This document shows, one piece after another, positions 2,986 through 18,634 of a stretch of 64,000 nt of DNA. The notes beneath the pieces are model-generated. The model saw nothing but the letters and a program-made list of their open reading frames with translations. It had not been told where the DNA came from and did not search any database. This DNA comes from Polaribacter haliotis. Lineage in GTDB: Bacteria; Bacteroidota; Bacteroidia; Flavobacteriales; Flavobacteriaceae. Made by a program: the position numbers and the translations under genes. The DNA lies in the NCBI RefSeq assembly GCF_014784055.1, contig NZ_CP061813.1, positions 2,366,001 through 2,430,000 of the forward strand, given 5' to 3'. Position 1 is the first letter of the stretch. Every line of letters starts with the position of its first letter.

Positions 2986-2990
2986 AGAAG

Positions 2991-3102
2991 AGTTGGCAGT
3001 AAAATTAGTAGGCAGTAGGCAGTCGCTTACTAAATTCTAATTTTACTAAATCCTTTCACTATAAACTATTGACTGAAGACTGCAAACTGAAGACTGCCTA
3101 CT
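2991..3102. repeat. Interspersed repeat with inverted GGCAGT ends
   Basis: The left end carries three spaced GGCAGT units (2991-3025). The right end carries their reverse complement, ACTGAAGACTGC twice and then CTGCCTACT (3072-3102). The whole fills the gap between the MoxR and DUF58 genes. Related ends bound the repeat at 27932-28149. It looks like a non-coding, MITE-like or palindromic interspersed element. No ORF or transposase is inside. Confidence 0.6.
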
Positions 3103-3109
3103 TAAAAAA

Positions 3110-3979: not shown

Positions 3980-3980
3980 A

Positions 3981-4175
3981 GAAGCCCTTCTTAATCTTCC
4001 CAAAGGGAAGAAACACTCAATTGAAAAGTGTGTGAAATAAAATTGAAAAGAATCAAAATAAAGAAAAATTAAAAGTTGAAAACAAGAAATATAAATATCA
4101 ATTTTCAAAAAAGTGATAAAAAAGTACAGGCTAAACGTCCTTTCTCTTTTGGAGAGAGGATTGAGGTGAGAGGCT
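3981..4175. repeat. Repeat pair with opposed ends between the DUF58 gene and the next gene
   Basis: The left end (3981-4011) is a reverse-oriented copy of a unit with a perfect TCTTCCC/GGGAAGA hairpin (3995-4011). The right end (about 4136-4175) is a forward, degenerate copy with CTCTTTTGGAGAG followed by GATTGAGGTGAGAGG. The AT-rich middle contains several TTGAAAA units. The same unit recurs at 7954-8090. The right copy is read through in frame by the next gene. Confidence 0.6.
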
Positions 4176-5083
4176 TTCTCTTTTTTCTTTTTTCTCTATT
4201 CTTTTTTTCTGGTTTTGCACAAGAAGGAATGGTAAAAGCAGAAATTGATACTACTAACATTAGAATTGGTGAGCAATTTCAATTGAAAATTTCTGTAGAT
4301 GAAACTCAGAATGTAATTATTCCAAAATTACGTTTAAATGGTTTGGAGGTTATCGATTCTACTAAAGTTGATACTCTTAAAAACTCACTCATCAGAAGGT
4401 ATATTTTAACTGGTTTCGATAGTGGCGCATTTTACATTCCTCAACAACAAATATTTGTAAAAAATAGAGCATATTTTACAGATTCTTTATTAGTTAATGT
4501 AGCTACAGTGGCTATAGATACGACTAAAGTGAAAAAATTTCCGATTAAATCTATCAAAAAAGAACCTTATACTTTCGACGATTTTAAAATCTATTTTTAT
4601 ATTCTTTTAGCTGCTTTGGCAATTATAGGTTTCTGGATTTATTGGTTTGTTATCAGAAAAAGAAAAGAAGAAATTGAAGCACCAACTTATAGAACATTGC
4701 CTCCTTACGAAGAAGCTATTTTAAGGTTGAGTGAATTGGACGAAAAATTATTGTGGCAGAACAATAAAGTAAAAGAATATTATAGTGAATTAACGGAAAT
4801 TGTGCGTGGTTATATAGAACGTGAGTTAAATGTACCTGCTTTAGAAAACACGACAGACGAAGTTCTAGAAATGATTAGAGATTTCAAAAAGTCAGATACA
4901 ATACAAACTTCGCAAGACACTTTAGATAAATTAAGAAGTCTATTGAGAGAAGCAGATTTGGTGAAGTTTGCAAAATCGAAACCTTTGGCTTTAGAGATTG
5001 AAGAAGATAGAAAAGATGCACAAGAAATTGTGAGTAATTTAAAACCTAAACCAATTATTGAAGAAAATGATGAATTGGAATAA
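4166..5083 (+). CDS. Bat operon membrane protein of unknown function
   Basis: A signal peptide (RGFLFFLFSLFFFSGFAQ) is followed by a beta-rich extracytoplasmic domain reminiscent of part of BatD. One transmembrane helix follows (about residues 144-165 from the chosen start), with a basic RKRKEE stop-transfer. The helical cytoplasmic tail begins PPYEEAILRLSELDE. The frame has no ATG before the signal peptide. The longest reading starts at a TTG (4076) and gives a 33-residue hydrophilic leader made partly of repeat DNA. GTG at 4166 gives a normal short signal peptide and is preferred here, but with doubt. It overlaps batA by 17 bases. Many flavobacterial Bat operons have such a gene here; its function is undescribed. 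Confidence 0.75.
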   Translation: MRGFLFFLFSLFFFSGFAQEGMVKAEIDTTNIRIGEQFQLKISVDETQNVIIPKLRLNGLEVIDSTKVDTLKNSLIRRYILTGFDSGAFYIPQQQIFVKNRAYFTDSLLVNVATVAIDTTKVKKFPIKSIKKEPYTFDDFKIYFYILLAALAIIGFWIYWFVIRKRKEEIEAPTYRTLPPYEEAILRLSELDEKLLWQNNKVKEYYSELTEIVRGYIERELNVPALENTTDEVLEMIRDFKKSDTIQTSQDTLDKLRSLLREADLVKFAKSKPLALEIEEDRKDAQEIVSNLKPKPIIEENDELE

Positions 5084-6077
5084 TTTCGAGTTTTATAATC
5101 CTGAATTTCTGTGGCTGTTAATTTTAATTCCACTTTTGGCAGTTTGGTATTTCTTTATGCGTAAAAAAGACGCTGCAGTTTTAACCATGCCAAGTGTAAA
5201 AGGTTTTAAAGTAGAATCTTCTATTTTATCGAAATTAAAACCTCTTTTATATTTGTTAAGATTGTTGGCTTTGGCGGCAATAATTGTGGCTTTAGCAAGA
5301 CCAAGAAATGTATCTGTAAGCAAGAAAACAAAAACAAATAAAGGAATTGATATTGTTATGGCAATTGATGTTTCTGCAAGTATGTTAGCAAGAGATTTAA
5401 AGCCAAATAGATTAGAAGCACTTAAAAAAGTAGCGATAGATTTTGTAGACAGAAGACCAAATGACAGAATAGGAATCGTAGTTTACGCAGGTGAAAGTTT
5501 TACACAAACACCAATTACAAGCGATAAAAGCATTGTAAAAAGAACCATTTCCGAATTAAAATGGGGCCAATTAGAAGGCGGAACTGCCATTGGAATGGGT
5601 TTAGGTTCTGGAGTTAATAGACTCAAGGAAAGTAAAGCAAAAAGTAAAGTAATTATTTTGTTAACAGATGGTGTAAATAATTCTGGAAATATAGACCCAA
5701 GAACTGCAACAGAATTGGCAAAAGAGTTGAAAATTAAAGTCTACACAATTGGAATTGGAACCAATGGAATGGCAGATTTTCCTTGGAGTAAAGACCCAAG
5801 AACAGGAAAATTAAATTTTAGAAAACAACAGGTAGAGATAGATGAAGCTTTATTAAAAGATATTGCTACAGAAACTGAAGGGAAATATTTTAGAGCGACA
5901 GACAATTCATCTTTAAAAGAAATTTATGATGAAATTGACACACTCGAAAAAACAAAAATAGAGGAGTTCAAATACTATAATTATCAAGAAAAATTCAGAA
6001 TTTTTGTCTTTTTTGCTCTTGGTTTATTGGTATTAGAGTTCTTGTTGAGAAACACAATATTTAAGAGTTTTATATAA
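5067..6077 (+). CDS. batA: BatA, VWA domain membrane protein
   Basis: Two N-terminal membrane segments (about 13-30 and 58-77) precede a VWA domain with an intact MIDAS motif DVSAS at about 101-105 and a TDG motif later. A C-terminal transmembrane helix (FRIFVFFALGLLVLEFLL) closes the protein. This TM-TM-VWA-TM layout is that of BatA. The earliest possible start is a TTG at 5058; the ATG at 5067, overlapping the previous gene by 17 bases, is the likelier one. BatA and BatB are thought to form a membrane complex with MoxR and other Bat proteins. The biochemical function is unsettled. Confidence 0.92.
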   Translation: MMNWNNFEFYNPEFLWLLILIPLLAVWYFFMRKKDAAVLTMPSVKGFKVESSILSKLKPLLYLLRLLALAAIIVALARPRNVSVSKKTKTNKGIDIVMAIDVSASMLARDLKPNRLEALKKVAIDFVDRRPNDRIGIVVYAGESFTQTPITSDKSIVKRTISELKWGQLEGGTAIGMGLGSGVNRLKESKAKSKVIILLTDGVNNSGNIDPRTATELAKELKIKVYTIGIGTNGMADFPWSKDPRTGKLNFRKQQVEIDEALLKDIATETEGKYFRATDNSSLKEIYDEIDTLEKTKIEEFKYYNYQEKFRIFVFFALGLLVLEFLLRNTIFKSFI

Positions 6078-6079
6078 AA

Positions 6080-7126
6080 ATGTACAGAATAGAAGAACCA
6101 ATTTATTTTTATCTACTCGCAATTATTCCAGCAATAGTTGTGTTATTTCTATTGGTTTTATGGTGGAAAAAAAGAACACAGCGTAAATTTTCTGATGCAG
6201 ATTTACTTCAGAAATTAGCGCCAAACTCATCAACATTCAAATCGGTTTTAAAATTGGTGATGTTATCAATTGGAATTACTTTTTTAGTAATTTCTTTGGT
6301 AAACCCAAAAATGGGAACTAAACTAAAAACGGTAAAAAGAGAAGGTGTAGATATTGTTTTTGCTTTAGATGTTTCCAAAAGTATGTTGGCAGAAGATATT
6401 GCCCCAAATCGTTTGGAAAAATCGAAACAAATTATCTCTAAAATTATTGATAAATTAGGTTCAGATAGAGTCGGAATTATTGTGTATGCAGGTAATTCGT
6501 ACCCACTTTTGCCAATTACAACAGATCATGGAGCTGCGAATATGTTTTTGCAGAATGCAAACCCAGATATGGTTTCCAGCCAAGGAACAGCAATTAGCGA
6601 AGCCTTAGAGCTGGCAAAAACATTTTATAATAATGATGAACAAACAAATCGTTTTCTAATTATTATTTCAGATGGTGAAGATCATCAAGAAGAAACAAAA
6701 CAAGTTGCACAAAATTTAGCAAACGAAGGTGTAAAAATTTATGCTGTTGGTGTTGGAACGGAAAATGGAGGTCCAATTCCTATTCGTGTAAATAATTCTG
6801 TTGTTGGTTATAAAAAAGATAATAAAGGTGAAACTGTTATCACCAAAAGAAACGCCGAGGTTTTAGAAGAAATCGCAGATATTGCCAACGGAAAATATTT
6901 GGATGGAAATGTAACCGAAAATCCTGTAAGTGCAATTGCAGATATTATTGCAAATGCAGAAAAAAATGAATTTGAAACGAAACAATTTTCAGATTATAAA
7001 GATCAATTTCAGTGGTTTTTGGCATTAGGATTGCTATTCTTAGTTTTAGATATTTTCTTATTTGATAAGAAAACAAAATGGCTAAGAAAAGCAGATTTAT
7101 TTAATGAAGAAAAGAATAAAAAATAA
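6080..7126 (+). CDS. batB: BatB, VWA domain membrane protein
   Basis: This 348-residue paralogue of BatA starts two bases after its stop. Membrane helices lie at about 10-28 and 58-75, then a VWA domain with DVSKS at 97-101 and ISDGED for the distal metal contacts. A final transmembrane helix ends near residue 328. Translation is probably coupled to batA. BatB pairs with BatA in the Bat complex; the VWA faces the periplasm by the usual topology. No key residue is missing. Confidence 0.93.
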   Translation: MYRIEEPIYFYLLAIIPAIVVLFLLVLWWKKRTQRKFSDADLLQKLAPNSSTFKSVLKLVMLSIGITFLVISLVNPKMGTKLKTVKREGVDIVFALDVSKSMLAEDIAPNRLEKSKQIISKIIDKLGSDRVGIIVYAGNSYPLLPITTDHGAANMFLQNANPDMVSSQGTAISEALELAKTFYNNDEQTNRFLIIISDGEDHQEETKQVAQNLANEGVKIYAVGVGTENGGPIPIRVNNSVVGYKKDNKGETVITKRNAEVLEEIADIANGKYLDGNVTENPVSAIADIIANAEKNEFETKQFSDYKDQFQWFLALGLLFLVLDIFLFDKKTKWLRKADLFNEEKNKK

Positions 7127-7127
7127 G

Positions 7128-7952
7128 ATGAAAAAATTAAAATACACACTTATTATCTTTCTATTGCTCTTTTCAACAAAAGAAATAGTAGCACAAAAAG
7201 ATACGATAGCATTGCAAAGAAAAGCAAGAACAATGTTACGTCAAGGAAATGAATTGTACCAAAAACAGCAATTTACAGATGCTTCTGTGGCGTACCAAAA
7301 AGCGTTGGGGAACAATTCTAATTACGATAAAGCTTCTTATAATTTAGGAAATGCTTTTTATCAAAATAAAAACTTCAAAGAAGCAATTCCACAATACGAA
7401 TTAACAGCAAAAACTGCAACAGATAAGTTTACGAAGGCAGAAGCGTTTCATAATATTGGAAATGCACAAATGGAAGCAAAAAACTATCAAGGTGCTGTAG
7501 ATGCTTATAAAAGTTCCTTGAGAAATAATCCTAATGACGATGAAACTCGTTATAATTTGGCAGTCGCTCAAAAAATGTTAGATAAAGAAAATCAGCAAAA
7601 TAAAGACGACAAAAACAAAGATAAAAAGGACGATAAAGACAAGGAAAACAAAGACAAAGACGACAAGAATAAAGATAAAAATAAAGACAAGAAAGACGGA
7701 GACGATAAGGATAAAAAGGACGAGGACAAAGATAAAGACGGAAAAGGCGATAAAGACAAGGACAAAAACAAAGATCCTAAAAAAGACGATAAAAAAGAAC
7801 AACAAAAGCCAAAACCAAAACAGGGTCAAATGACTCCTCAGCAAGTAAAACAGTTATTGGAAAGTTTAAATAACGAGGAGAAAAAAACCCAAAAGAAAAT
7901 GAATGCTAAAAAGGCAAAGGGTAAAAAAATAAAACAAGAAAAAGATTGGTAA
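7128..7952 (+). CDS. batC: BatC, TPR protein with a lysine/aspartate-rich tail
   Basis: A signal peptide (MKKLKYTLIIFLLLFSTKEIVAQ) is followed by about three TPR units (residues 30-155). Then comes an extremely charged low-complexity stretch of some 75 residues built from Lys-Asp and Asp-Lys-Asn steps. The end, MTPQQVKQLLESLNNEEKK...KQEKDW, is typical of BatC. The ATG at 7104 inside batB would add eight residues and spoil the signal peptide, so 7128 is chosen, one base after the batB stop. The repetitive tail gives a long antisense open frame, which is an artefact. Likely a periplasmic scaffold of the Bat complex. Confidence 0.9.
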   Translation: MKKLKYTLIIFLLLFSTKEIVAQKDTIALQRKARTMLRQGNELYQKQQFTDASVAYQKALGNNSNYDKASYNLGNAFYQNKNFKEAIPQYELTAKTATDKFTKAEAFHNIGNAQMEAKNYQGAVDAYKSSLRNNPNDDETRYNLAVAQKMLDKENQQNKDDKNKDKKDDKDKENKDKDDKNKDKNKDKKDGDDKDKKDEDKDKDGKGDKDKDKNKDPKKDDKKEQQKPKPKQGQMTPQQVKQLLESLNNEEKKTQKKMNAKKAKGKKIKQEKDW

Positions 7953-7953
7953 T

Positions 7954-8090
7954 AAGCCCATCTTTACTTCTTCCCAAAGGGAAGAAAACACATACTTTAA
8001 GTTTTATATAAAAAAGATTTAAAGAAAGTTAGAAAACGGAAAAATTAAGATAAGAGTGTCTCTCCCCTTTGGGGAGATTAAGAGGGGCAA
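7954..8090. repeat. Repeat pair with opposed ends between batC and batD
   Basis: The left end is a reverse copy with a perfect 8-base hairpin TTCTTCCC/GGGAAGAA (7968-7986). The right end is a forward copy with TCTCCCC/GGGGAGA (8061-8077) followed by TTAAGAGGGGC. Compared with the unit at 3981-4011, the stem bases differ in a compensatory way while GATTAAGA is kept. It interrupts an otherwise tightly packed operon by 140 bases. It may act as an RNA hairpin that tunes batD expression; that is inference. Confidence 0.62.
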
Positions 8091-8092
8091 AT

Positions 8093-9853
8093 ATGAAGTT
8101 GAAATTTTACATATCGATATTGCTTTTTGTTTTAACGACAAGCTTAGTTGCGCAAGAAGCAACAATTCAAGCAAAAGTTAGTAAAAATAAATTAGGTTTA
8201 AACCAACGTTTGCGAATTGTGTTTTCGATAAACAAACAAGGTGGAGAAAATTTTACACCTCCAAACTTTACTAATTTTAGAGTTGTTGGTGGCCCAAGCC
8301 AATCTGTAAGCCAATCTTGGGTAAATGGAAAAACCACTTTTTCTCAGTCTTACACATACATCATTCAACCAACTAGAAAAGGAGAACTTTCTATTGGTAC
8401 TGCAAGTGTTAAAATTGGTGGAAAAACAATAAAAACAGATCCTATAAAAATTATCGTTTTAGATGCTGTAGAGATTCCTAAAGATCCAAACGACCCAAAT
8501 TATGTGGCACAACAAAATATTCATTTAGTGGCAGAAATTTCTAAATCGAGACCTTATGTTGGCGAAGGAATTTATGTTGAATATCGTTTATATGTTAGTG
8601 AAAATGTAAGTGTTTACGATACAAATGTTACAGAAGCACCAAAATATAATGGATTTTGGAATCAGGATATTAAAATAAATGGTTATCCCGTTAAAATGGG
8701 AAAATACAATGGTGAGGATTACAGGTATATTGTTTTACAAAAAGCTTTATTAATTCCTACAAAATCGGGTAAACTAGAAATCGAACCCATGAAAATGGAC
8801 ATAATTATTGGTGTTCCAACAGGAAGAGCAGATTTCTTTGGAAATGCAATTACCAGTAATGTTCGTAAAGAATTTGCATCAGAAAAAAAATTAATTCGTC
8901 CTAGAAGTCTTCCTTTAGAAGGCAAACCAGCAAACTTTACAGGCGCTGTTGGAGAATTCGATTTTAAAGTTTCTTTGAGTAAAGAAATTTTGAAGGCGAA
9001 TGAAACTTCCGAAATTAAAGTCGCAGTTACTGGAAAAGGAAATTTAAAATTATTCGAATTACCAAGTGTAGAAACTCCTGTAGAGTTAGAAATTTATCAA
9101 CCAGAAAGAAAAGAAAAAGTAAATGTTTATTCTAGTGGAATCTCTGGTTCTGTAACAGATTCTTATACTGTTGTGCCACAATACAAAGGAAAATATAAAA
9201 TTCCAAGTACTTCTTTTTCTTACTTTAACCCTAAAGAAGGAAAATACAAAACAATTGATACTGAAGATTTATTTGTAGATGTACAAGAAGGGAAAGAACT
9301 GGTAATTGTTGACAGTACTTCTGTAAATAAAAGAGATGTAATTTCAACTGGTGAAAATTTTAGATATATTGCTACGAAAACCACTTTTGAACCTGCTGAA
9401 AAGTCAGACTTCTTTAAATCGAACTTGTTTTATATTTTACTTTTATTACCATTAATTGCAATTCCAATCGGAATATTTATTGGCAAAAGAAATGAAGAAA
9501 GAAGTAACGATATTGTTGGAAATAGAACAAGAAAAGCTGAGAGATTAGCTAAAAAATATTTATCAGAAGCGCAAAAGCAATTAGGTAAAAAAGAAGCTTT
9601 TTATGAGGCTTTAGAACGTGCACTTCATAATTACTTAAAAGCAAAGTTAGGCATCGAAACTTCTGAAATTAGTAAAGAAAGAATTACTGAAATTTTAGAA
9701 AGTAAGAAAGTGGAATCTAGCACAATTCATCAATTTATTGAGGTTTTAAAGAGCTCAGATTTTGCAAGATATACACCATTTACAGCCACTCAAATGAAAG
9801 AAGAATTTGAGCGTGCAAAAGAAGTTATTGTTCAATTAGATAAACAATTATAA
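8093..9853 (+). CDS. batD: BatD, oxygen tolerance protein
   Basis: This 586-residue protein has a signal peptide (MKLKFYISILLFVLTTSLVAQ) and a long periplasmic beta-rich part beginning EATIQAKVSKNKLGLNQRLRIVFSI. One transmembrane helix lies near residue 450 (FYILLLLPLIAIPIGIFI), followed by a helical cytoplasmic tail. A TTG at 8069 would extend the frame into the repeat and add eight odd residues; the ATG at 8093 gives a clean signal peptide. BatD is a core component of Bat operons. Its precise role is unknown. Confidence 0.92.
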   Translation: MKLKFYISILLFVLTTSLVAQEATIQAKVSKNKLGLNQRLRIVFSINKQGGENFTPPNFTNFRVVGGPSQSVSQSWVNGKTTFSQSYTYIIQPTRKGELSIGTASVKIGGKTIKTDPIKIIVLDAVEIPKDPNDPNYVAQQNIHLVAEISKSRPYVGEGIYVEYRLYVSENVSVYDTNVTEAPKYNGFWNQDIKINGYPVKMGKYNGEDYRYIVLQKALLIPTKSGKLEIEPMKMDIIIGVPTGRADFFGNAITSNVRKEFASEKKLIRPRSLPLEGKPANFTGAVGEFDFKVSLSKEILKANETSEIKVAVTGKGNLKLFELPSVETPVELEIYQPERKEKVNVYSSGISGSVTDSYTVVPQYKGKYKIPSTSFSYFNPKEGKYKTIDTEDLFVDVQEGKELVIVDSTSVNKRDVISTGENFRYIATKTTFEPAEKSDFFKSNLFYILLLLPLIAIPIGIFIGKRNEERSNDIVGNRTRKAERLAKKYLSEAQKQLGKKEAFYEALERALHNYLKAKLGIETSEISKERITEILESKKVESSTIHQFIEVLKSSDFARYTPFTATQMKEEFERAKEVIVQLDKQL

Positions 9854-9855
9854 AA

Positions 9856-10614
9856 ATGAAAAAAATACTGTTTTTATTTTTGATAATCGCTAGTTCTGTA
9901 AATGCTCAGAATGTAGATAGTTTGTTTGTTTCCGCAAATGAATTGTACAAAAACGGACAATTCGAAGAAGCTATTGAAAAATATAAGAAGATTGAATCTG
10001 AGAAAGTAATTTCATCAGAATTATATTACAATTTAGGGAATGCTTATTACAAATTAAATAAGGTAGGGCCTACTATTTTCTATTATGAAAAAGCATTAAA
10101 AATAGATCCTTTAAACGAAGATGTAAAAAATAATTTAATCTTTGCAAAACGTTTGGCTCTAGATAATATTGAAGAAGTTCCAAAAACCGTTTTTCAAAGG
10201 TTCAACACAAATTACCTTCAGAAATTATCTTACAATCAATGGGCAATAATTGTGGTGGTGCTTTCTTTAGTGGCTTCCCTATTATTTTTACTATTTTACT
10301 TTGCATATACTCCAAGAAGAAAAAGAACTTATTTTACAATAAGTGCCATCTGTTTTATTCTTTTAATTGCTACCCTTTTTATAACATATAGCCAATATAA
10401 TCAAACAAAAAATAATATTGAAGCCATAGTTTTTGCTGAAAAAACAGAAGTCAGAAATGCACCAACTTTAAATGCTGAAGAAGTTTTTACATTACATGAG
10501 GGTACAAAAGTTGTTGTTTTAGACACTATAGATAATTGGAAAAAGATTAAGTTAATAGATGGTAAGATTGGTTGGATAATTTCAAGTGAAATAAAACTGT
10601 TGAATAATTTTTAA
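9856..10614 (+). CDS. batE: BatE, TPR and SH3 domain protein
   Basis: This 252-residue protein starts two bases after batD. It has a signal peptide, two or three TPR units (about 20-100), two transmembrane helices (about 134-153 and 160-178), and a C-terminal bacterial SH3 domain (about 190-250) with the ALYD-like pattern V-R-N-A-P...I-D-N-W-K-K-I. This is the usual final gene of Bat operons. No clear terminator follows; the next candidate promoter is at 10648. Confidence 0.9.
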   Translation: MKKILFLFLIIASSVNAQNVDSLFVSANELYKNGQFEEAIEKYKKIESEKVISSELYYNLGNAYYKLNKVGPTIFYYEKALKIDPLNEDVKNNLIFAKRLALDNIEEVPKTVFQRFNTNYLQKLSYNQWAIIVVVLSLVASLLFLLFYFAYTPRRKRTYFTISAICFILLIATLFITYSQYNQTKNNIEAIVFAEKTEVRNAPTLNAEEVFTLHEGTKVVVLDTIDNWKKIKLIDGKIGWIISSEIKLLNNF

Positions 10615-10647
10615 TTTTATTTTAACAAAAAAATAAAAAACCTTTCT

Positions 10648-10655
10648 TATGTTTG
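10648..10655 (+). promoter_or_regulatory. Candidate -7 box before small protein A
   Basis: TATGTTTG matches TAnnTTTG and lies 25 bases before the TTG start at 10681. The paralogous gene at 16202 has TATCTTTG at nearly the same distance (22 bases), which supports both. No clear -33 element is seen. Confidence 0.42.
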
Positions 10656-10680
10656 TTTGTTTTTAAAAAATAATGAACTT

Positions 10681-10989
10681 TTGAAAGTAAGAATCGCAAT
10701 TTTCTTTTCTGTTTTATTCGTTAGTCTTATAGTGACTCCAACTATTATTAGTTTAACGGATTCATCACAAGATATTTCTTATTTTTTAAATTTTAGTGAG
10801 GAAGAAGAAGAGAATAAAGGAAAAGGAGAATCTAATAAAGATACAAAACTAAAAATACATTCTTCAAGCTTTATAAATGTTGTTTTGACTAACGTATTTA
10901 AGTCGAACAAAAACATTTGTTTTTATTCTAAGAACTACATTTTTGAATTTTCTAAAGTTACCACTCCACCACCCAAGTTTGTACTATAA
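10681..10989 (+). CDS. Small membrane or secreted protein A, linked to SulP
   Basis: This 102-residue protein has an N-terminal hydrophobic segment (KVRIAIFFSVLFVSLIVTPTIISL). An acidic patch (SEEEEEN) follows, and a tail ends near TTPPPKF. No known domain is recognised. It is paralogous to the gene at 16202: both have KVRIA, P-T-(I/L)-I-S, D-Q-D-I-S, an EEE(E/D) run, a downstream N-Y-I and a PP near the end. Both begin with TTG; the only nearby ATG (10672) runs into a stop after three codons. It is 88 bases upstream of a SulP transporter, the same arrangement as its paralogue. An accessory subunit of the transporter is inferred, not shown. Confidence 0.72.
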   Translation: MKVRIAIFFSVLFVSLIVTPTIISLTDSSQDISYFLNFSEEEEENKGKGESNKDTKLKIHSSSFINVVLTNVFKSNKNICFYSKNYIFEFSKVTTPPPKFVL

Positions 10990-11039
10990 TTTAGAATTAG
11001 TATAACAAAAGATCAATTTTATTTATTAAAAACAAAACT

Positions 11040-11058
11040 CTAGGCAACCTATGCCCAG
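11040..11058 (+). promoter_or_regulatory. Leader hairpin before SulP A
   Basis: CTAGGCA pairs with TGCCCAG (six of seven pairs) across a five-base loop, ending 19 bases before the ATG at 11078. The SulP B leader has a hairpin of the same size, loop and distance but different sequence (16563-16581). The upstream in-frame ATG at 11051 falls in the hairpin and is probably not the start. Confidence 0.5.
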
Positions 11059-11077
11059 AGAGAAAATATATATATAT

Positions 11078-12661
11078 ATGTTTAAACACATTAAAAACGA
11101 TTTGCCAGCAAGTATAGTGGTATTTTTCGTAGCATTACCATTATGTTTAGGTATTGCATTAGCAAGTGGAGCTCCTCTTTTTTCAGGGTTAATTGCAGGA
11201 ATTATTGGAGGTATTGTAGTAGGAGGCTTAAGTGGCTCTAAAATTGGAGTAAGTGGACCAGCAGCTGGTTTGGCAGCAATTGTATTAACAGCAATTGGTA
11301 CTTTAGGTGGTTATGAAAACTTTTTAGTTGCTGTAGTTTTGGGAGGAATAATTCAAGTAATTTTTGGTGCTTTAAAAGCAGGAATTATTGGTTATTATTT
11401 TCCATCTTCCGTAATTAAAGGAATGTTAACAGGTATTGGAATTATTATTATTTTAAAACAAATTCCACACTTTTTTGGATATGATGCAGAAGCAGAAGGA
11501 GCAGATAGTTTTATAGAAGCTTCAGGAGAAAATACATTTTCTGCAATTTTAAATATTACAGACAATATTACTTTAGGGTCTACAATTATTGGTTTTATAG
11601 GATTGGGAATCTTATTACTTTGGAGTAATGTTTTATCTAAAAAAGGAAAAGTGTTTCAGATAATTCAAGGGCCATTAGTAGCAGTGGTTGCTGGTATTGT
11701 ATATTATTTCTTTACTACCGAAAATTCTAAATATGGTATTAACTCAGAACATTTAGTAAGCGTTCCTGTACCAGATAGTTTCGATTCTTTCTTGGGGCAG
11801 TTTAGCTTCCCGAATTTTGGTGCAATTACAAATCCACAAGTTTGGGTAACAGCATTTACAATTGCTCTGGTTGCAAGTTTAGAAACTTTATTATGTGTAG
11901 AAGCTACAGATAAGTTAGATCCGCACAAAAACGTAACTCCAACAAACAGAGAATTATTAGCACAAGGAACAGGAAACGTAATTTCTGGTTTAATTGGTGG
12001 TTTGCCTATTACACAAGTTATTGTAAGAAGTTCTGCAAATATTCAATCTGGTGGTAGAACGAAGTTATCTGCAATAATTCATGGTTTTTTATTATTAATT
12101 TCTGTGATTTTAATTCCTACTTTACTAAATAAAATACCTTTATCTGTTTTAGCAGCAATATTATTAGTCGTTGGTTATAAGTTAGCAAAACCAACTGTAT
12201 TTAAAGAAATGGTTCAGTTAGGTTGGAAACAATGGATACCATTTTTTGTGACTGTAATTGGTATTGTTTTCGCAGATTTATTAATAGGTATTGCCTTAGG
12301 TTTAGCAGTTGGTATTGTTGTAATTTTAATTAAGAGTTTCCAGAATTCTCACTTTTTACACATAGAAGATAAGAGTAATGGAAAACACAGAATTAAAATG
12401 ACATTGGCAGAAGAAGTTACTTTCTTTAATAAAGGTGCTATTTTAAAAGAATTAGACAGTTTACCAAAGGATACTTTCTTAGAATTAGATGTTAGAAAAA
12501 CTAGATATTTAGATAACGATATTATCGAAATTTTAGAAGATTTTGCATTCAAGGTAAAAGAAAGAAATATAGATATTCAATTGATTTCGGAAAGAGGAAT
12601 TGTAGAAAACCCTCCAAGTTATATCGAATTTTTTAACCTAAGACCTAAAAAATCTGCATAA
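11078..12661 (+). CDS. SulP family anion transporter A (probable bicarbonate importer)
   Basis: This 527-residue protein has the SulP core of about 10-14 membrane segments and a C-terminal STAS-like domain (about residues 430-520). The motif GSKIGVSGPAAGLAAIV near residue 50 belongs to the substrate-binding region. It is nearly identical to SulP B at 16600 over its first 160 residues, and the shared MFKHIKND start supports ATG 11078. SulP proteins carry sulfate, bicarbonate or other anions. Proximity to a carbonic anhydrase gene favours bicarbonate (BicA-like), but sulfate cannot be excluded. Confidence 0.86.
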   Translation: MFKHIKNDLPASIVVFFVALPLCLGIALASGAPLFSGLIAGIIGGIVVGGLSGSKIGVSGPAAGLAAIVLTAIGTLGGYENFLVAVVLGGIIQVIFGALKAGIIGYYFPSSVIKGMLTGIGIIIILKQIPHFFGYDAEAEGADSFIEASGENTFSAILNITDNITLGSTIIGFIGLGILLLWSNVLSKKGKVFQIIQGPLVAVVAGIVYYFFTTENSKYGINSEHLVSVPVPDSFDSFLGQFSFPNFGAITNPQVWVTAFTIALVASLETLLCVEATDKLDPHKNVTPTNRELLAQGTGNVISGLIGGLPITQVIVRSSANIQSGGRTKLSAIIHGFLLLISVILIPTLLNKIPLSVLAAILLVVGYKLAKPTVFKEMVQLGWKQWIPFFVTVIGIVFADLLIGIALGLAVGIVVILIKSFQNSHFLHIEDKSNGKHRIKMTLAEEVTFFNKGAILKELDSLPKDTFLELDVRKTRYLDNDIIEILEDFAFKVKERNIDIQLISERGIVENPPSYIEFFNLRPKKSA

Positions 12662-12672
12662 AAAAAACAATT

Positions 12673-13431
12673 ATGAATAATAAATGTAAAATTTTAGTGC
12701 TTGCAGATGTTGATAAATCAACATCTGAAATTCTTAAAAAAGGAGTGGATTTAGCAAATGTAGTTCAAGGAGAAATTGATTTTTTCTGCGTAAAAAAGCC
12801 TACAGATGTTGTGGAAAAAGAGAGTCAGCTTTCTGCAATGAGATCTATTAATAAAACATTTATAGAAACAGATAATCAAATTAAAAAAATGATTAATGAT
12901 GTTTCTGTAAATAGTATTCCTATAAATCATAAGATTTCATTTGGAAATTTAAAAGATGAAATTAGATATCAAATAAAAGAAACAAAACCAGATATTGTTC
13001 TCTTAGGGAAAAGAAAGTCTAAAATATTGTCTTTTTTTGGAGATAATGTTATCAATTTAATTTTAAAAGAATTTAATGGCACTATTTTAATTGTTTCCGA
13101 AGAAAACCCATTAGAAGCAAAAGAAGAAATTTCTTTAGGGCTGTTAAATAACGTAAATTTATCAGAAAATAGATTTATGGAAACTTTAGCTTCTTATTCT
13201 AACAAACCTCTTAAATCTTTTCAAATAAATCCTGTTGAAAAGAAAATATCTAATCCTAATAATACTGTAGAATTTGTATTTGAGGGTGGAGATAATACAA
13301 TTAAGAATGTGAATAACTATTTATCTAAAAATAAGATTGACTTATTGTTTCTAAATAGAGAGAAAGAAACAAAATCTAAGATTGGAGGCATATTAAATAA
13401 TTTAAATTGTTCTTTAATGGTAAGTAATTAG
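12673..13431 (+). CDS. Universal stress protein (UspA family), tandem domain
   Basis: This 252-residue protein has an N-terminal Usp-like domain (CKILVLADVDKSTSEILKKGVDLA; PDIVLLGKRKS) and a more diverged second half that ends KIGGILNNLNCSLMVSN. The gene starts 11 bases after SulP A and so is probably in its operon. The glycine-rich ATP-binding motif of canonical Usp proteins (G-2x-G-9x-G-S/T) is not obvious, so nucleotide binding is uncertain. Usp proteins next to transporters often regulate them; that role here is inferred. Confidence 0.75.
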   Translation: MNNKCKILVLADVDKSTSEILKKGVDLANVVQGEIDFFCVKKPTDVVEKESQLSAMRSINKTFIETDNQIKKMINDVSVNSIPINHKISFGNLKDEIRYQIKETKPDIVLLGKRKSKILSFFGDNVINLILKEFNGTILIVSEENPLEAKEEISLGLLNNVNLSENRFMETLASYSNKPLKSFQINPVEKKISNPNNTVEFVFEGGDNTIKNVNNYLSKNKIDLLFLNREKETKSKIGGILNNLNCSLMVSN

Positions 13432-13517
13432 AAATTAAATTGCTTTTTAAAAATAAGCTTGTGTTAAGAATAGAATGATTAACTTGGTGTTTACTAATTA
13501 ATCAATTTAAAAAAGTA

Positions 13518-15386
13518 ATGAAAAAATTATTTTCAAATATTAAAGGAGATGCTTTCGGTGGAATAACTGCTGGAATTGTAGCATTACCATTAGCTTTAGC
13601 ATTCGGTGTATCATCTGGATTGGGGCCAAGTGCGGGTTTATATGGAGCTATATTTATTAGTTTTTTCGCTGCTCTTTTTGGAGGAACAAACACTCAAATT
13701 TCTGGGCCAACTGCACCAATGACAGCAGTAAGTATGGTGGTTATTGCAGGTATTATTGCCGCAAACGATGGTGATGTTACCAAAGCTTTACCAGCAATTT
13801 TAACTGTTTTCTTATTAGCAGGACTGTTTCAAATTATTTTAGGAGTTATTGGTTTAGGAAAATACATTCGATATATTCCATACCCAGTAGTTTCTGGTTT
13901 TATGACAGCGATTGGTGTTATTATTTTATTAACGCAAATATTACCTTCTGTAGGATATTATCCGAAGGAAGATATCGAATTTGTAAGTACATTTAAACCA
14001 CAAGCCGAAGAAGTAATTTTAGAAAATATTTTAAAAGAAGAAGCTGGAGAAGGTATTTTAGTACTTGAAGATTTTAAAGAAACCATAGCTAGAGCCAACA
14101 AAATTACACCTGCAGATATTTTAAAAGAATCGGAAACATTAGCCGCAAAAGAAACATCTGGTGTATTAGGTGCTATTAAAGCTTTTCCAAGGGCAATACA
14201 GAATATTAGTTGGTTAGAATTATTATTAGCTTTAGGAACCATTTTTATTATTTATGGCTTTAAACGGGTTACTACTAAAATTCCTAGTACATTAGTTGCA
14301 TTAATTGTAATGTCTGGAATTGCAGTTGGTTTTGGTTTAGATTATAGGACTATCCAAGAAATTCCTAGTGGAATTCCAGAAATTAAATGGGAAATTTTCT
14401 CAAATTTTTCTTTAGGAAGTCTAACTCCATATATATTTACAGCCTTAACATTAGCTCTTTTGGGAGCCATAGATTCACTTTTAACAAGTGTTGTTGCAGA
14501 TAATATGACTAAAACAAAGCACAAACCAAATAAAGAATTGGTAGGGCAAGGAATTGGAAATAGTATAGCCGCGTTATTTGGAGGTATTCCTGGAGCTGGT
14601 GCAACTATTAGAACAGTTGTAAATATTAATGCTGGTGGAAAAACCAAGCTTTCTGGAATGATCGCTGGTATTATGTTATTAATAATAATGTTAGGTTTAG
14701 GACCTGTAGCATCTAAGATTCCAGCTGCAGTTTTAGCAGGAATTTTAATTACAGTTGGTATTGGAGTTATGGATTATAAAGGGTTAAAAGCAATACCATA
14801 TTTGCCAAAAGACATTAAAATTGGTCCAATTAAACTAAGTTCGGAAGTTTTAATTATGATGGTTGTTTTATTACTATCTACTTTTTGGAACTTAGTATAT
14901 GCAGTTGGTATTGGGTTGGTAATTGCTTCTTTGATGTTTATGAAGAAAATTGGGGATTTAACAGCAGAAAGATCTGACGTAAAATCTTTAAAAGAAGAAT
15001 CTTGGGCAGATGAGTATGATTTCCCTGAAAATCTTAAAGAGGAAGTTTTTATCAAGCACATAAAAGGACCTTTATTTTTTGGTTCTACTAGTGATTTTCA
15101 AGCACTGTCACTCCAAATTCCTGAAACTGCGAAAACAGTTATTTTAAGATTAGGAAGAATGCAATATATGGATCAATCTGGGTTGTATGCCATGGAAGAT
15201 ATGTTGCAAGATTTAAAGAAAAAGAATATTGAAGTCTTGTTTGTTAATTTATTAAAACAACCAAGATATATGATGGAACGAATAGATATCATTCCAGATT
15301 TTATACCTACAGAACACATATTTAAAAATTTTGACACTTGTGTGAAGTGGGTAAAAGAAAATGTAAAAGACGAATTTAAAAATTAA
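13518..15386 (+). CDS. SulP family transporter with a full STAS domain
   Basis: This 622-residue SulP protein is from a different subfamily than SulP A and B. The core motif is TQISGPTAPMTAVSMV near residue 60. It has an unusual insertion of roughly 65 residues (about 152-220), rich in Glu and Lys, between membrane segments. A full STAS domain follows at about 515-610, including MDQSGLYAMEDM near the usual phosphorylation site. It is followed after five bases by the carbonic anhydrase gene, the arrangement seen in bicarbonate-acquisition operons. Bicarbonate transport is probable on that context only. Confidence 0.87.
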   Translation: MKKLFSNIKGDAFGGITAGIVALPLALAFGVSSGLGPSAGLYGAIFISFFAALFGGTNTQISGPTAPMTAVSMVVIAGIIAANDGDVTKALPAILTVFLLAGLFQIILGVIGLGKYIRYIPYPVVSGFMTAIGVIILLTQILPSVGYYPKEDIEFVSTFKPQAEEVILENILKEEAGEGILVLEDFKETIARANKITPADILKESETLAAKETSGVLGAIKAFPRAIQNISWLELLLALGTIFIIYGFKRVTTKIPSTLVALIVMSGIAVGFGLDYRTIQEIPSGIPEIKWEIFSNFSLGSLTPYIFTALTLALLGAIDSLLTSVVADNMTKTKHKPNKELVGQGIGNSIAALFGGIPGAGATIRTVVNINAGGKTKLSGMIAGIMLLIIMLGLGPVASKIPAAVLAGILITVGIGVMDYKGLKAIPYLPKDIKIGPIKLSSEVLIMMVVLLLSTFWNLVYAVGIGLVIASLMFMKKIGDLTAERSDVKSLKEESWADEYDFPENLKEEVFIKHIKGPLFFGSTSDFQALSLQIPETAKTVILRLGRMQYMDQSGLYAMEDMLQDLKKKNIEVLFVNLLKQPRYMMERIDIIPDFIPTEHIFKNFDTCVKWVKENVKDEFKN

Positions 15387-15391
15387 AAATT

Positions 15392-16021
15392 ATGAGAACA
15401 TTAGCATTAAACAAAAACGCACAAGACAACCTAAATCCAAATGATGTTTTAACAAACCTTTTGGACGGAAATAGAAGATTTATAAATAATACTTTAGAAA
15501 ATGTAGATTATAACGCTTTAGTAAAAGACACTGTTGGTGGCCAATATCCAAAAGCAGTTGTTTTATCTTGTATCGACTCAAGAGTACCTGTAGAGCAAGT
15601 ATTTGACCAAACTATTGGAGATATTTTTGTAGCGAGAGTTGCTGGTAATTTCGAGAATACAGATATTTTAGGAAGTTTAGAATATTCTTGTGCAGTTGCT
15701 GGAAGCAAACTAGTTTTAGTATTAGGTCACGAAAGTTGTGGTGCTGTAAAAGCGGCTTGCGATGGTGTTGAGTTAGGTAATATAACTGCCATGTTAGATA
15801 ATATTATTCCTGCAGTTAAAAAGTCTTCGGAAGAAGTAGATGGCGAAGCAAATTCTTCAAATAAAGAATTTGTTGCTAAAACTGTTGAAAATAATGTGTT
15901 GTTAACTATTGATAGAATCAGAGAAAAAAGTTCAATTCTTCAAGAAATGGAAGACAATGGAGATATAAAAATAGTTGGTGGTGTTTATTCTTTACAAACT
16001 GGAGAAGTAACTATGTTGTAG
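15392..16021 (+). CDS. Beta-class carbonic anhydrase
   Basis: This 209-residue enzyme has the zinc ligands and catalytic dyad of beta-carbonic anhydrases: Cys60, Asp62 and Arg64 in SCIDSR, and His113 and Cys116 in GHESCG. It interconverts CO2 and bicarbonate, probably in the cytoplasm since no signal peptide is visible. It lies five bases after a SulP gene, so the two are probably co-translated. A strong terminator follows at 16061. The enzyme call is very secure. Confidence 0.96.
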   Translation: MRTLALNKNAQDNLNPNDVLTNLLDGNRRFINNTLENVDYNALVKDTVGGQYPKAVVLSCIDSRVPVEQVFDQTIGDIFVARVAGNFENTDILGSLEYSCAVAGSKLVLVLGHESCGAVKAACDGVELGNITAMLDNIIPAVKKSSEEVDGEANSSNKEFVAKTVENNVLLTIDRIREKSSILQEMEDNGDIKIVGGVYSLQTGEVTML

Positions 16022-16060
16022 TGCTCTATTAGAAAAAAACAAAACTTATATTCAACAAAA

Positions 16061-16086
16061 AACCCGAGATAAATCTCGGGTTTTTT
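16061..16086 (+). terminator. Rho-independent terminator after carbonic anhydrase
   Basis: A perfect 8-base stem CCCGAGAT/ATCTCGGG with an AA loop (16063-16080) is followed by six T residues and preceded by A residues. The same hairpin recurs at 18215-18240 after SulP B. Confidence 0.9.
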
Positions 16087-16171
16087 ATTTTTATAAGGTT
16101 TTTTCTATTATAATTTAAAAAAATGAGTTTTTCTTTATGTTTGCTTTAACACATTTTAATTTGCCTAATGT

Positions 16172-16179
16172 TATCTTTG
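16172..16179 (+). promoter_or_regulatory. Candidate -7 box before small protein B
   Basis: TATCTTTG matches TAnnTTTG, 22 bases before the TTG start codon at 16202 and after the terminator at 16061, so a new transcript is expected here. The -33 element is not clear. Confidence 0.5.
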
Positions 16180-16201
16180 CATTCAATTAAAATAACCCTT
16201 T

Positions 16202-16498
16202 TTGAAAGTTAGAATTGCACTTTTTTTTACTTTTTTATTCTTAGGAATAATCGCTGCTCCAACTTTAATAAGTTTCATGGACAAAGACCAGGATATTTCT
16301 GTTTTTCTTGCGCTTAATGAAGAAGAAGATACAACTGGAAGCTCAATAAGTGAAGGATTAAAAGTGTATGCACCTTTTAATGTGGCTTTATTTCTTCGAG
16401 AAATAATCCAAAAAGAAGAAAACTTAGCCTACAATACTACAAATTATATCTCTCAATATCCTATTATTTTAACACAACCTCCAGAGACTTTGTCGTAA
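16202..16498 (+). CDS. Small membrane or secreted protein B, linked to SulP
   Basis: This 98-residue paralogue of the protein at 10681 has an N-terminal hydrophobic segment KVRIALFFTFLFLGIIAAPTLISF, then DKDQDISVFLALNEEED, and a tail ending near TQPPETLS. Like its paralogue it starts with TTG and has no in-frame ATG near it. It lies 101 bases upstream of SulP B. The repeated pairing of this small protein with a SulP gene suggests a functional link such as an accessory or regulatory subunit. I recognise no domain. Confidence 0.72.
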   Translation: MKVRIALFFTFLFLGIIAAPTLISFMDKDQDISVFLALNEEEDTTGSSISEGLKVYAPFNVALFLREIIQKEENLAYNTTNYISQYPIILTQPPETLS

Positions 16499-16514
16499 TT
16501 TTTCCATTTTATTA

Positions 16515-16533
16515 TGAAGTCATTTTGACTTCA
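16515..16533 (+). promoter_or_regulatory. Hairpin between small protein B and SulP B
   Basis: TGAAGTCA and TGACTTCA form a perfect 8-base stem around TTT. No T-tract follows, so it is a processing, stability or attenuation hairpin rather than a plain terminator. No counterpart is seen in the SulP A leader. Confidence 0.4.
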
Positions 16534-16562
16534 ATCACACAATTTATTTTAAAAATCAAATT

Positions 16563-16581
16563 CTGAACAATATATGTTCGG
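16563..16581 (+). promoter_or_regulatory. Leader hairpin before SulP B
   Basis: CTGAACA pairs with TGTTCGG (one T-G wobble) around a five-base loop, ending 18 bases before the ATG. Stem length, loop size and distance match the SulP A leader, while two pairs are G-C there and A-T here. Confidence 0.5.
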
Positions 16582-16599
16582 AACAAAAAACACGTCCCC

Positions 16600-18186
16600 A
16601 TGTTTAAACACATAAAAAATGATTTACCTGCAAGTATAGTAGTATTTTTCGTAGCATTACCATTATGTTTGGGTATTGCTCTCGCAAGTGGAGCCCCGTT
16701 ATTTTCTGGAATTATCTCAGGAGTAATTGGAGGAATAGTAGTTGGAGCCTTAAGTGGTTCTAAAATAGGAGTTAGTGGTCCAGCAGCTGGTTTAGCTGCA
16801 ATTGTTTTAACTGCAATAGGCACATTAGGAGGTTATGAAAACTTTTTAGTAGCTGTTGTTTTAGGAGGAATTATTCAATTAATATTCGGTTTATTAAAAG
16901 CTGGAGTTATTGGATATTATTTTCCTTCTTCAGTAATTAAAGGAATGTTAACCGGAATTGGAATTATTATCATTTTAAAACAAATTCCGCACTTTTTTGG
17001 ATATGATGTAGAACCTGAAGGTGCAGATAGCTTTATAGAAAGTTCTGGCGAAAATACTTTCTCTGCAATATTTAATATTTTCGAACATATAACTACAGGA
17101 TCTTTAGTAATTGGTGTTATTGGTTTCTTATGTATTCTTTTTTGGGATAATATTTTAGCCAAGAAGGCGAAATTTTTTACTGTAATACAAGGTCCATTAG
17201 TTGCTGTAGTTTTAGGAATTCTATATTTTATATTCACAAAATCTAACGACGTATTTGGTATTACAGAAACACACTTGGTTAGTGTGCCAATTCCTAATGA
17301 TATTGCCTCATTTTTAGGTCAGTTTAGTTTTCCTAATTTTTCCGCTATTACAAATATAGATGTTTGGATAACTGCATTTACAATTGCATTAGTTGCAAGT
17401 TTAGAAACACTTTTATCTGTGGAGGCTTCCGATAAAATAGATCCAGATAAAAATGTAACGCCAACAAATAGAGAGTTAATTGCACAGGGAACAGGTAATG
17501 TAGTTTCTGGTTTAATTGGTGGTTTGCCTATCACACAGGTTATTGTAAGAAGTTCTGCGAACATACAGTCGGGTGGTAAAACAAAGTTATCTGTTATTTT
17601 ACACGGTGTTTTATTATTAATTTCTGTAATATTAATTCCTAAGCTATTAAATAAGATTCCACTTTCTGTATTAGCGGCTATTTTATTAATTGTTGGTTAT
17701 AAATTAGCAAAGCCAACTGTATTTAAACAAATGTATACATTGGGTTGGAAACAATTTGTACCATTTATGGTAACAGTTCTTGGTATTGTGTTTACAAATT
17801 TATTAGTCGGAATTAGTTTAGGTTTGGTAGTAGGAATTGTTGTTATTTTATTAAAAAGTTATCAAAATTCTCACTTTTTACATATGGAAGACAAAAGCAA
17901 TGGAGTTCATAAAATTAAAATTACTTTGGCAGAAGAAGTAACATTTTTTAATAAAGGAGCGATTTTAAAAGAACTAGATTGTTTACCAGAAAATTCTCAA
18001 TTAGAAATAAATGTTTTAAAAACAAGGTATTTAGATAATGATATTATAGAAATTTTAGAAGATTTTATCTTTAAAGCAAAAGAAAAAAATATAGAAATAG
18101 AATTGGTTTCCGAAAAAGGTGCTTTTAAAAATCCTGCAAGCTTTATAGGTTTCTTTGCAAATAAAAGAAAACACAAAGCTGCTTAA
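16600..18186 (+). CDS. SulP family anion transporter B (probable bicarbonate importer)
   Basis: This 528-residue paralogue of SulP A has the same start MFKHIKND, the same SGPAAGLAAIV motif near residue 50 and a C-terminal STAS-like domain. Most differences lie in loops and in the STAS part. It forms a self-contained unit with small protein B and a terminator at 18215. The copy looks like a duplication of the upstream pair around the UspA-SulP-carbonic anhydrase genes. The substrate is inferred from context. Confidence 0.86.
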   Translation: MFKHIKNDLPASIVVFFVALPLCLGIALASGAPLFSGIISGVIGGIVVGALSGSKIGVSGPAAGLAAIVLTAIGTLGGYENFLVAVVLGGIIQLIFGLLKAGVIGYYFPSSVIKGMLTGIGIIIILKQIPHFFGYDVEPEGADSFIESSGENTFSAIFNIFEHITTGSLVIGVIGFLCILFWDNILAKKAKFFTVIQGPLVAVVLGILYFIFTKSNDVFGITETHLVSVPIPNDIASFLGQFSFPNFSAITNIDVWITAFTIALVASLETLLSVEASDKIDPDKNVTPTNRELIAQGTGNVVSGLIGGLPITQVIVRSSANIQSGGKTKLSVILHGVLLLISVILIPKLLNKIPLSVLAAILLIVGYKLAKPTVFKQMYTLGWKQFVPFMVTVLGIVFTNLLVGISLGLVVGIVVILLKSYQNSHFLHMEDKSNGVHKIKITLAEEVTFFNKGAILKELDCLPENSQLEINVLKTRYLDNDIIEILEDFIFKAKEKNIEIELVSEKGAFKNPASFIGFFANKRKHKAA

Positions 18187-18214
18187 AAGTTTTATGATCT
18201 TTATAATACAAAAA

Positions 18215-18240
18215 AACCCGAGATAAATCTCGGGTTTTTT
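18215..18240. terminator. Bidirectional terminator after SulP B
   Basis: CCCGAGAT/ATCTCGGG stem, A-rich before and T-rich after, in the 55-base gap between convergent genes, so it can serve both strands. It is the same hairpin as at 16061-16086. Confidence 0.9.
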
Positions 18241-18241
18241 A

Positions 18242-18634
18242 TTATTCGTAATTTGCTTGTTTTGCTTTGGTTAATCTTCCTTCCCAGGATCTACCTCCTA
18301 AAGTAGAAGTATAGTAGATTTTTTTCCCTCTTACCTTATCTACCTTTATATGCATTCTTGTACCCATTTTAAATGGAAAGTTTGGCAACGTACTTTCTTG
18401 GATGATTAAATAATATTCGCAATCGTTAATCCATTCGATATCCGATTTTATAAAATGTTTTCTTTTGTTATGGTACTCTACATGTTTATTTTCTTTAAAA
18501 ATAACTACCACATTATTACTTCCATTTTTATATGAAAATGTATTGTTTTTTAAGATTGTACAATCTTTTTTTGAACTAGAAGACATTAGTGCAAAAGAGC
18601 ACAAAATAGCTAAAAGGAAGTAAAATTTTTTCAT
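18242..18634 (-). CDS. Hypothetical secreted protein
   Basis: This 130-residue protein has an N-terminal signal peptide (MKKFYFLLAILCSFALMSSSS) and a small, probably beta-rich domain. The pattern (strands around NNVVVIFKENKHVEYHN, YYLIIQE, KIYYTSTLGG) resembles small lipocalin-like proteins. The Cys at 25 and the later Cys of DCEYYL could form a disulfide; there is no proper lipobox. It converges on SulP B. Function unknown. Confidence 0.7.
   Translation of the reverse strand: MKKFYFLLAILCSFALMSSSSKKDCTILKNNTFSYKNGSNNVVVIFKENKHVEYHNKRKHFIKSDIEWINDCEYYLIIQESTLPNFPFKMGTRMHIKVDKVRGKKIYYTSTLGGRSWEGRLTKAKQANYE

Follow-up and report, generated by a model that had tools for sequence, protein, structure and literature searches.

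We propose that a family of small proteins encoded upstream of putative bicarbonate-uptake genes in Flavobacteriaceae acts, probably, as a cis-acting nascent-chain regulator, i.e. as a translated leader or upstream open reading frame (uORF). This grading covers control by the nascent chain in cis, not the identity of the signal that is sensed. The family came to light in a 64,000-nucleotide (nt) stretch of Polaribacter haliotis DNA (NZ_CP061813.1, positions 2,366,001 to 2,430,000; hereafter the window). There, two genes for proteins of about 100 residues, small A and small B, each lie directly upstream of a gene for a SulP transporter (SulP A and SulP B), on either side of a Usp-like gene, a BicA-like SulP gene and a gene for a beta-carbonic anhydrase (CA). 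An earlier note, written from the sequence of the window, had described the two small proteins as paralogues and suggested that they are accessory or regulatory subunits of the transporter. The paralogy and the tie to SulP and CA have held up, whereas the subunit role is less well supported.

A small, putatively exported protein linked to SulP and carbonic anhydrase genes

We searched for the small gene in a genus set of 146 Polaribacter/Tenacibaculum genomes and in a family set of 299 Flavobacteriaceae genomes covering 203 genera. A two-sequence profile returned two strong matches in the source genome, small A and small B, and three more at E 0.09 or worse, and it matched 122 of the 146 genus genomes at the loose limit of E <= 1. 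Among the matches listed in this genus search, two strong copies were found in the source genome and in one further genome (G013) only. A 31-sequence profile matched 182 of the 299 family genomes and 127 of the 203 genera at E <= 0.001, and the small gene is also present in relatives that this profile missed. All 150 family-wide matches listed sit upstream of SulP and/or CA, 85 of them by their coordinates (just upstream of SulP-A) and 60 plus a further 5 by their DNA.

Small genes were found at 154 loci, one of which (L107) is cut by a contig end and was dropped, leaving 153; besides the two in the window, 132 distinct small genes were counted. The earlier note would have given up its reading had homologues usually not lain next to SulP genes, but the DNA places every one of the 132 upstream of SulP and/or CA. 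The next gene is SulP-A in 95 cases, a BicA-like SulP in 17 and CA in 16, and another gene intervenes in four. SulP or CA follows within 600 nt in 128 cases; in the other four, one same-strand gene comes first and then SulP or CA. At two loci (L057 and L162) CA alone is visible downstream within the stretch covered. The intervening gene (L143, L153, L162 and L182; about 220-230 residues) presumably encodes a DUF2490-like outer-membrane barrel, which would perhaps provide an outer-membrane route for bicarbonate. At L182 (G411) the order is small gene, barrel, CA, small gene, CA and BicA-like SulP, each of the two small genes being upstream of a CA.

The linkage is also seen from the side of the transporter. 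The small gene is present at 28 of the 30 best SulP-A loci, which were found via SulP and include that of the window, and at 20 further SulP-A loci drawn from 65 rows without a listed small neighbour (19 by profile, L206 by eye). Thus, it is present at 48 of the 50 SulP-A loci examined, a count that leaves out 39 of the 65 rows; L114 and L115 are the two loci without it. With a broader profile (E <= 0.01) matches were obtained in 24 of 247 genomes of the class and 30 of 247 of the phylum, the own family being counted in. At 34 inspected class and phylum loci, several of which overlap earlier ones, an open reading frame (ORF) ending in PP was seen in 30, of which 29 lie ahead of SulP or CA. The remaining one, at L237, is a longer PP-ending ORF (end ITSPPPEFV), possibly a leader of another kind, that precedes a TonB-receptor-like gene, and L240-L243 are weak profile matches without a PP-ending ORF. 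Since the small gene recurs upstream of SulP or CA across the family, the arrangement is not due to chance.

The small protein has no match in Pfam, NCBIfam, PHROGs or PDB, and the 80 aligned members are 89-103 residues long. All 80 have a hydrophobic N-terminal stretch of 19 residues (Kyte-Doolittle value >=1.93), and in all 80 the 35 residues that follow it are net negative, while the median net charge before it is +1, a pattern consistent with N-in, C-out insertion. Conservation was scored on 127 sequences of <75% identity. The conserved columns are a proline in the transmembrane (TM) segment (126 sequences), an EEE run (121-122) and a PPP motif (124-126), whereas the columns of the middle are mostly under about 1 bit and the middle segments share a pairwise identity of about 21%. 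The spacing of these elements is nearly constant: 20 residues (standard deviation 0.4) from the TM proline to EEE, and a median of 53 from EEE to PPP (standard deviation 2.0, range 47-58, n=146 in the alignment). Plain text patterns, used without an alignment, give a median of 54 for the latter (interquartile range 54-55, range 48-66), with 128 of 150 within 3 residues. A SulP loop was useless as a control for constant spacing, because the loop is itself conserved. Moreover, 152 of 153 genes have PP within the final 14 residues, compared to 2 of 353 background ORFs; 145 of the 153 carry E, K or D directly after PPP, and in 144 the stop follows 3-5 residues past PPP. The proline codons at PPP vary, with 41 different triplets among 148 genes, and selection therefore acts on the amino acids.

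Small A and small B are 35% identical over 99 residues (E 8e-22), or 37% in the alignment. Most of the features that the earlier note had listed as common to both, namely the hydrophobic N-terminus, the acidic EEE run and the PP tail, are indeed shared. DQDIS, however, occurs in small B only, small A having SQDIS, so that the common motif is QDIS. The C-terminal motifs are PPPK in small A and QPPE in small B, each followed by a few further residues.

Promoter element, start codons and the hairpin at the SulP start

Of 41 genus members, 30 have the motif TAnnTTTG, which we take to be the Bacteroidota -7 promoter consensus, at most 70 nt upstream of the small gene, compared to 2.5 expected from shuffled sequence; it lies mostly at -30 to -36. 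TTG is the start codon of the small genes of the genus: a script assigns it to 38 of 41, and to these can be added L025 and L030, in which the ATG label refers to an upstream codon; the start of L108 is ATG. For small genes from outside the genus, the script assigns an ATG start to 89 of 110.

We folded the region from -60 to -8 of the SulP start and compared it to dinucleotide shuffles at 124 of 133 small-to-SulP junctions. The other nine were excluded for a start codon other than ATG, a match beginning elsewhere than at the start, or a spacer of <60 nt. As controls served 46 other same-strand junctions, taken from the window and from 12-kb genus loci (L083-L110). The median fold z-score is -2.77 at the small-to-SulP junctions, 60.5% of which are below -2, compared to 0.02 and 8.7% for the controls. 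The 91 hairpins with z < -1.5 consist of a stem of about 9 pairs with a 4-nt loop, and they end at -17 of the SulP AUG (interquartile range -19 to -16). In Flavobacterium johnsoniae, according to PMC6847099, the stretch from -20 to +20 tends to be free of pairing, an A at -12/-13 stimulates translation and the ribosomal protein bS1 is positioned for contact with -12 to -15. A hairpin that ends at -17 therefore abuts the ribosome site.

BicA-like SulP genes later in the operon lack the hairpin signal (median z -0.47, n=26), and the hairpin is absent from the two SulP-A loci without a small gene (L114 and L115), where the SulP start is placed about 11 nt too far downstream. Among the loci of this check, the SulP start was misplaced in L114, L115, L202, L206, L207 and L216. 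In one clade, Tenacibaculum (L021, L025-L028, L030, L031 and L035), the spacer between small gene and SulP is about 170-190 nt long, compared to about 86 nt elsewhere, and the hairpin still adjoins the SulP start. We rejected intrinsic termination of the small gene as the role of the hairpin, since the + strand has no U-tract after it. A DNA operator is unlikely, since relatives differ in the sequence of the stem.

Proposed nascent-chain control and its alternatives

The layout, in which a targeting segment, a sensor-like motif, a fixed spacer and a C-terminal proline motif precede the stop, and a hairpin and the regulated gene come after it, matches CutF of Rhodobacter capsulatus and resembles CruR of Bordetella pertussis, and it is therefore a cis-acting regulator that we favour. 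By the account in PMC9973294, copper bound to the exported nascent chain of CutF prolongs a pause and opens a stem-loop. The sensor of CutF lies 45 residues from the C-terminal motif, which in the authors' reckoning places it in the periplasmic vestibule of SecY; the product is degraded after export, and the motif alone is insufficient (PMC9973294). Like CutF-like uORFs, the small protein is shorter than 150 residues, has PP near its stop and is followed closely, within 1000 nt, by a same-strand gene. Also as in these uORFs, a stem-loop is found at the next start, at small-to-SulP though not at small-to-CA junctions. At the N-terminus, CutF has an export signal and the small protein a hydrophobic stretch that may serve in targeting.

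There are differences too. The distance from sensor to C-terminal motif is about 53 residues instead of the 45 given for CutF, and EEE stands in place of the Cys/His metal motifs: CxxC or CxxxC is present in 2 of 80 members, 47 of 80 have no Cys past residue 20, and His is scattered (0-4 per protein). The targets are SulP and CA, while those described for CutF-like uORFs are mostly copper genes and some nickel/cobalt genes; in the main text of PMC9973294 neither "sulfate" nor "carbonic" occurs. In CruR, a DUF2946 uORF, the distance between CxxC and RAPP is given as 45, kept within one or two residues (PMC9426467). As described in the same paper, CruR differs from the small protein in its RAPP motif (PPP followed by E, K or D in the small protein), its CxxC copper sensor, its Rho-dependent termination and its dispensable signal peptide. 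Searches with 31 or with 80 small proteins gave no match to DUF2946 (PF11162) and one weak CzcI-like match in NCBIfam (E 0.008).

The small protein also resembles SecM, MifM, VemP and other Sec/YidC arrest peptides, as presented in PMC10987492, in being a small membrane or exported protein encoded upstream of the regulated gene, and the same paper reports uORF clusters with a proline ending in Bacteroidota. Those arrest peptides, however, were sought upstream of protein-localization genes, whereas the small gene is upstream of SulP or CA and not of secA, secDF or yidC; the word SulP is absent from the main text of PMC10987492. HYC_CC_PP proteins (NF047658) are likewise small proteins of Bacteroidota in which PP lies close to the C-terminus, but they are Cys-rich, and the small protein was rejected as a member, since none of 80 members matched NF047658 at E 0.01 and hhalign gave a probability of 0.5% (from two sequences only). 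The source genome has three HYC_CC_PP genes (L080, L081 and L082), all at places other than small A and small B, and this family may be the metal-sensing counterpart of CutF in Bacteroidota. Searches of the open-licence PMC literature listed no paper that describes this small gene or a leader peptide for SulP or CA.

For the small protein, the following scheme can be envisaged. The N-terminus would be engaged by the Sec translocon during synthesis, and once the ribosome is at PPP, about 53 residues would separate PPP from the EEE run, which would then be close to the outer face of the translocon; by the 45-residue reckoning of the CutF authors, as they present it, 53 residues would put EEE just outside SecY. 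Depending on membrane potential, pH or a cation, EEE would be pulled out or held, which would set the length of the ribosome pause at PPP. The pause would in turn alter the translation or transcription of the SulP and CA genes, with the hairpin as the gate. A bolder version, drawn by analogy and to our minds unlikely, would have the membrane potential itself pull EEE through SecYEG, so that pausing at PPP would read the proton- or sodium-motive state or the external pH and set the expression of bicarbonate uptake across Flavobacteria. A review (PMC6028853) recounts that acidic stretches are drawn through SecYEG by the membrane potential with a force sufficient for the release of SecM arrest, and that other residues were released too, so that the potential is not the sole force.

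Several observations weigh against nascent-chain control. S, T or L precedes PPP in 130 of 153 genes, and in E. coli stalling is weak when one of these residues stands there (PMC4176338); any pause must therefore be conditional. Copy B has PP only, and one member (L128) has no PP. At small-to-CA junctions there is no hairpin signal (median z -0.79; n=16, with guessed starts), and about 40% of the 124 small-to-SulP junctions miss a z of -2. Tests for covariation gave fractions of kept pairs with no clear gain over slid partners, the registers shifting in the A+T-rich sequence; the case for the hairpin therefore rests on stability and position. Furthermore, it begins 48 nt (A) or 62 nt (B) past the stop of the small gene, which is too far for direct melting by a ribosome that has paused at PPP and would call for Rho, helicase action of the ribosome or some intermediate structure. 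The intergenic length varies as well (5-95% range 67-189 nt). Finally, a folded domain could also give a constant distance between EEE and PPP, and the exported part from QDIS to EEEE is well conserved in the genus, which a subunit would explain equally.

This brings us back to the accessory or regulatory subunit of the earlier note, a possibility of some substance that we nevertheless consider rather unlikely. The mature small protein would be anchored with its acidic tail in the periplasm, where it would bind SulP (perhaps CA) and stabilise or gate bicarbonate transport. Such a protein would account for the constant neighbourhood of SulP or CA, the hydrophobic N-terminus and the net negative stretch after it in all 80 members, with the median net charge of +1 before it, the conservation of QDIS and EEEE at the amino acid level in the genus and the fact that units A and B each have a small-protein copy of their own. 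It is harder to reconcile with CA itself being the next gene in 16 of 132 cases, and a hypervariable middle of fixed length with PPP at the very end would be odd for a binding tail. It also leaves the hairpin unexplained. Moreover, identity to SulP A is 75% or higher in all SulP-A matches listed, at least 150, but identity to small A is mostly 20-40% among the aligned small proteins from outside the genus. We favour a leader over a simple subunit because the fixed spacing of EEE and PPP across the hypervariable middle, the C-terminal PPP and the hairpin at the SulP start fit the CutF/CruR kind better.

The two functions might be combined, with arrest of the leader controlling the operon and the released product acting on the transporter as well. 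Both the exported part and the C-terminal PPP are conserved, but two functions would be required, and the closest precedent, CutF, undergoes degradation once exported by the account in PMC9973294, which makes this combination highly improbable. Alternatively, the hairpin alone might be a spacer or an element of mRNA processing or stability that separates a small gene with weak expression from a SulP gene with strong expression, independent of the peptide. The stem sequence that is not conserved, the missing U-tract and the fixed position beside SulP would agree with such a role, which is compatible with the other readings, and the TTG starts in the genus suggest low expression of the small gene. 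Since neither other SulP starts nor the loci that lack the small gene (two such loci only) have the hairpin, and since PPP and its spacing would stay unexplained, we judge this decidedly unlikely.

The Polaribacter haliotis locus and its putative bicarbonate genes

Gene order and coordinates in the window are as the earlier note had given them, except that its first base, 10648, belongs to a promoter-like element and small A starts at 10681. From 10681 to 18186 the order is small A, SulP A, Usp-like gene, BicA-like SulP with STAS domain, CA, terminator, small B and SulP B, and a second terminator follows. All features are on the + strand:

10648..10655, + strand: Bacteroidota-type -7 promoter element TATGTTTG (TAnnTTTG, presumed consensus), 33 nt upstream of the small A TTG, from the sequence
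10681..10989, + strand: small protein A, 102 residues, TTG start; hydrophobic N-terminus, EEEEE, PPPK near the C-terminus
11038..11060, + strand: hairpin close before the SulP A start codon; inverted repeat whose position matches the family
11078..12661, + strand: SulP A, SulP/SLC26 transporter (PF00916 E 8.5e-63; BicA 6ki1 E 6e-25)
12673..13431, + strand: Usp-like protein (Pfam Usp E 0.006, under cut-off)
13518..15386, + strand: BicA-like SulP with STAS domain (PF00916 and PF01740; NF050096 BicA E 1.3e-123, under its cut-off; 6ki1 E 4e-87)
15392..16021, + strand: beta-carbonic anhydrase (PF00484 E 1.1e-40; NF011765 above cut-off)
16057..16086, + strand: intrinsic-terminator-like hairpin downstream of CA, from the sequence
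16172..16179, + strand: putative -7 promoter element TATCTTTG, 30 nt upstream of the small B TTG, from the sequence and the genus pattern
16202..16498, + strand: small protein B, 98 residues, TTG start; QPPE, then three residues to the end
16561..16583, + strand: hairpin close before the SulP B start codon; stem letters unlike those of hairpin A, yet still pairing
16600..18186, + strand: SulP B, 80% identical to SulP A
18211..18240, + strand: terminator-like hairpin downstream of SulP B, with a stem-loop sequence identical to that after CA

Since a terminator-like hairpin lies between CA and small B, small B and SulP B probably form a transcription unit of their own. A second perfect inverted repeat, GAAGTCA/TGACTTC, is found at 16516-16532 of the window, 17 nt past the stop of small B, and several relatives, judged by eye, likewise carry a hairpin at this position. 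Directly upstream of the locus, at 1996-10614, lies what we take, from the translations, to be a MoxR/Bat (aerotolerance) operon. A scan of 10560-18300 against Rfam gave matches below the gathering score only, nearly all at the two terminators, and a plasmid search with 10640-16100 gave no near match.

All three transporters of the window match Sulfate_transp (PF00916) above its cut-off. At 80% identity, SulP A and SulP B are not the near-identical pair of the earlier note, and the C-terminus of SulP A is merely STAS-like, without a match to Pfam STAS. The full STAS domain ascribed to the SulP at 13518-15386 is confirmed by PF01740, whereas the gene called UspA is better described as Usp-like. 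The SulP at 13518-15386 scores 413 bits against the BicA equivalog model NF050096, whose curated cut-off is 880, and by these scores it is BicA-like and not a BicA equivalog. A bicarbonate role of the downstream genes is plausible, because the full SulP matches the solved membrane domain of BicA (6ki1, E 4e-87) and CA recurs downstream. To our knowledge, no leader or small partner of this kind has been described for BicA. Proteorhodopsin-bearing Bacteroidetes are described in PMC4148732 as having CA and a putative bicarbonate transporter, which suggests anaplerotic carbon uptake and is credited there to the Polaribacter MED152 genome paper. A review of the inorganic-carbon toolkit names SulP transporters, and its main text has no word starting with Bacteroid (PMC10880623).

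In summary, an unnamed gene family, matched by no Pfam or NCBIfam model, is found upstream of putative bicarbonate-uptake genes, in an arrangement that extends far beyond one duplicated cluster to marine Flavobacteria and their relatives. It suggests a rule by which such genes might be searched for: a short exported ORF with a sensor motif, a fixed spacer, a C-terminal PP and a hairpin. If the small protein is indeed a nascent-chain regulator, the principle of CutF and CruR would be extended from metals to inorganic carbon, with a sensor whose acidic run might respond to membrane potential, pH or cations, and the family would be a candidate for the control of bicarbonate uptake in these heterotrophs.

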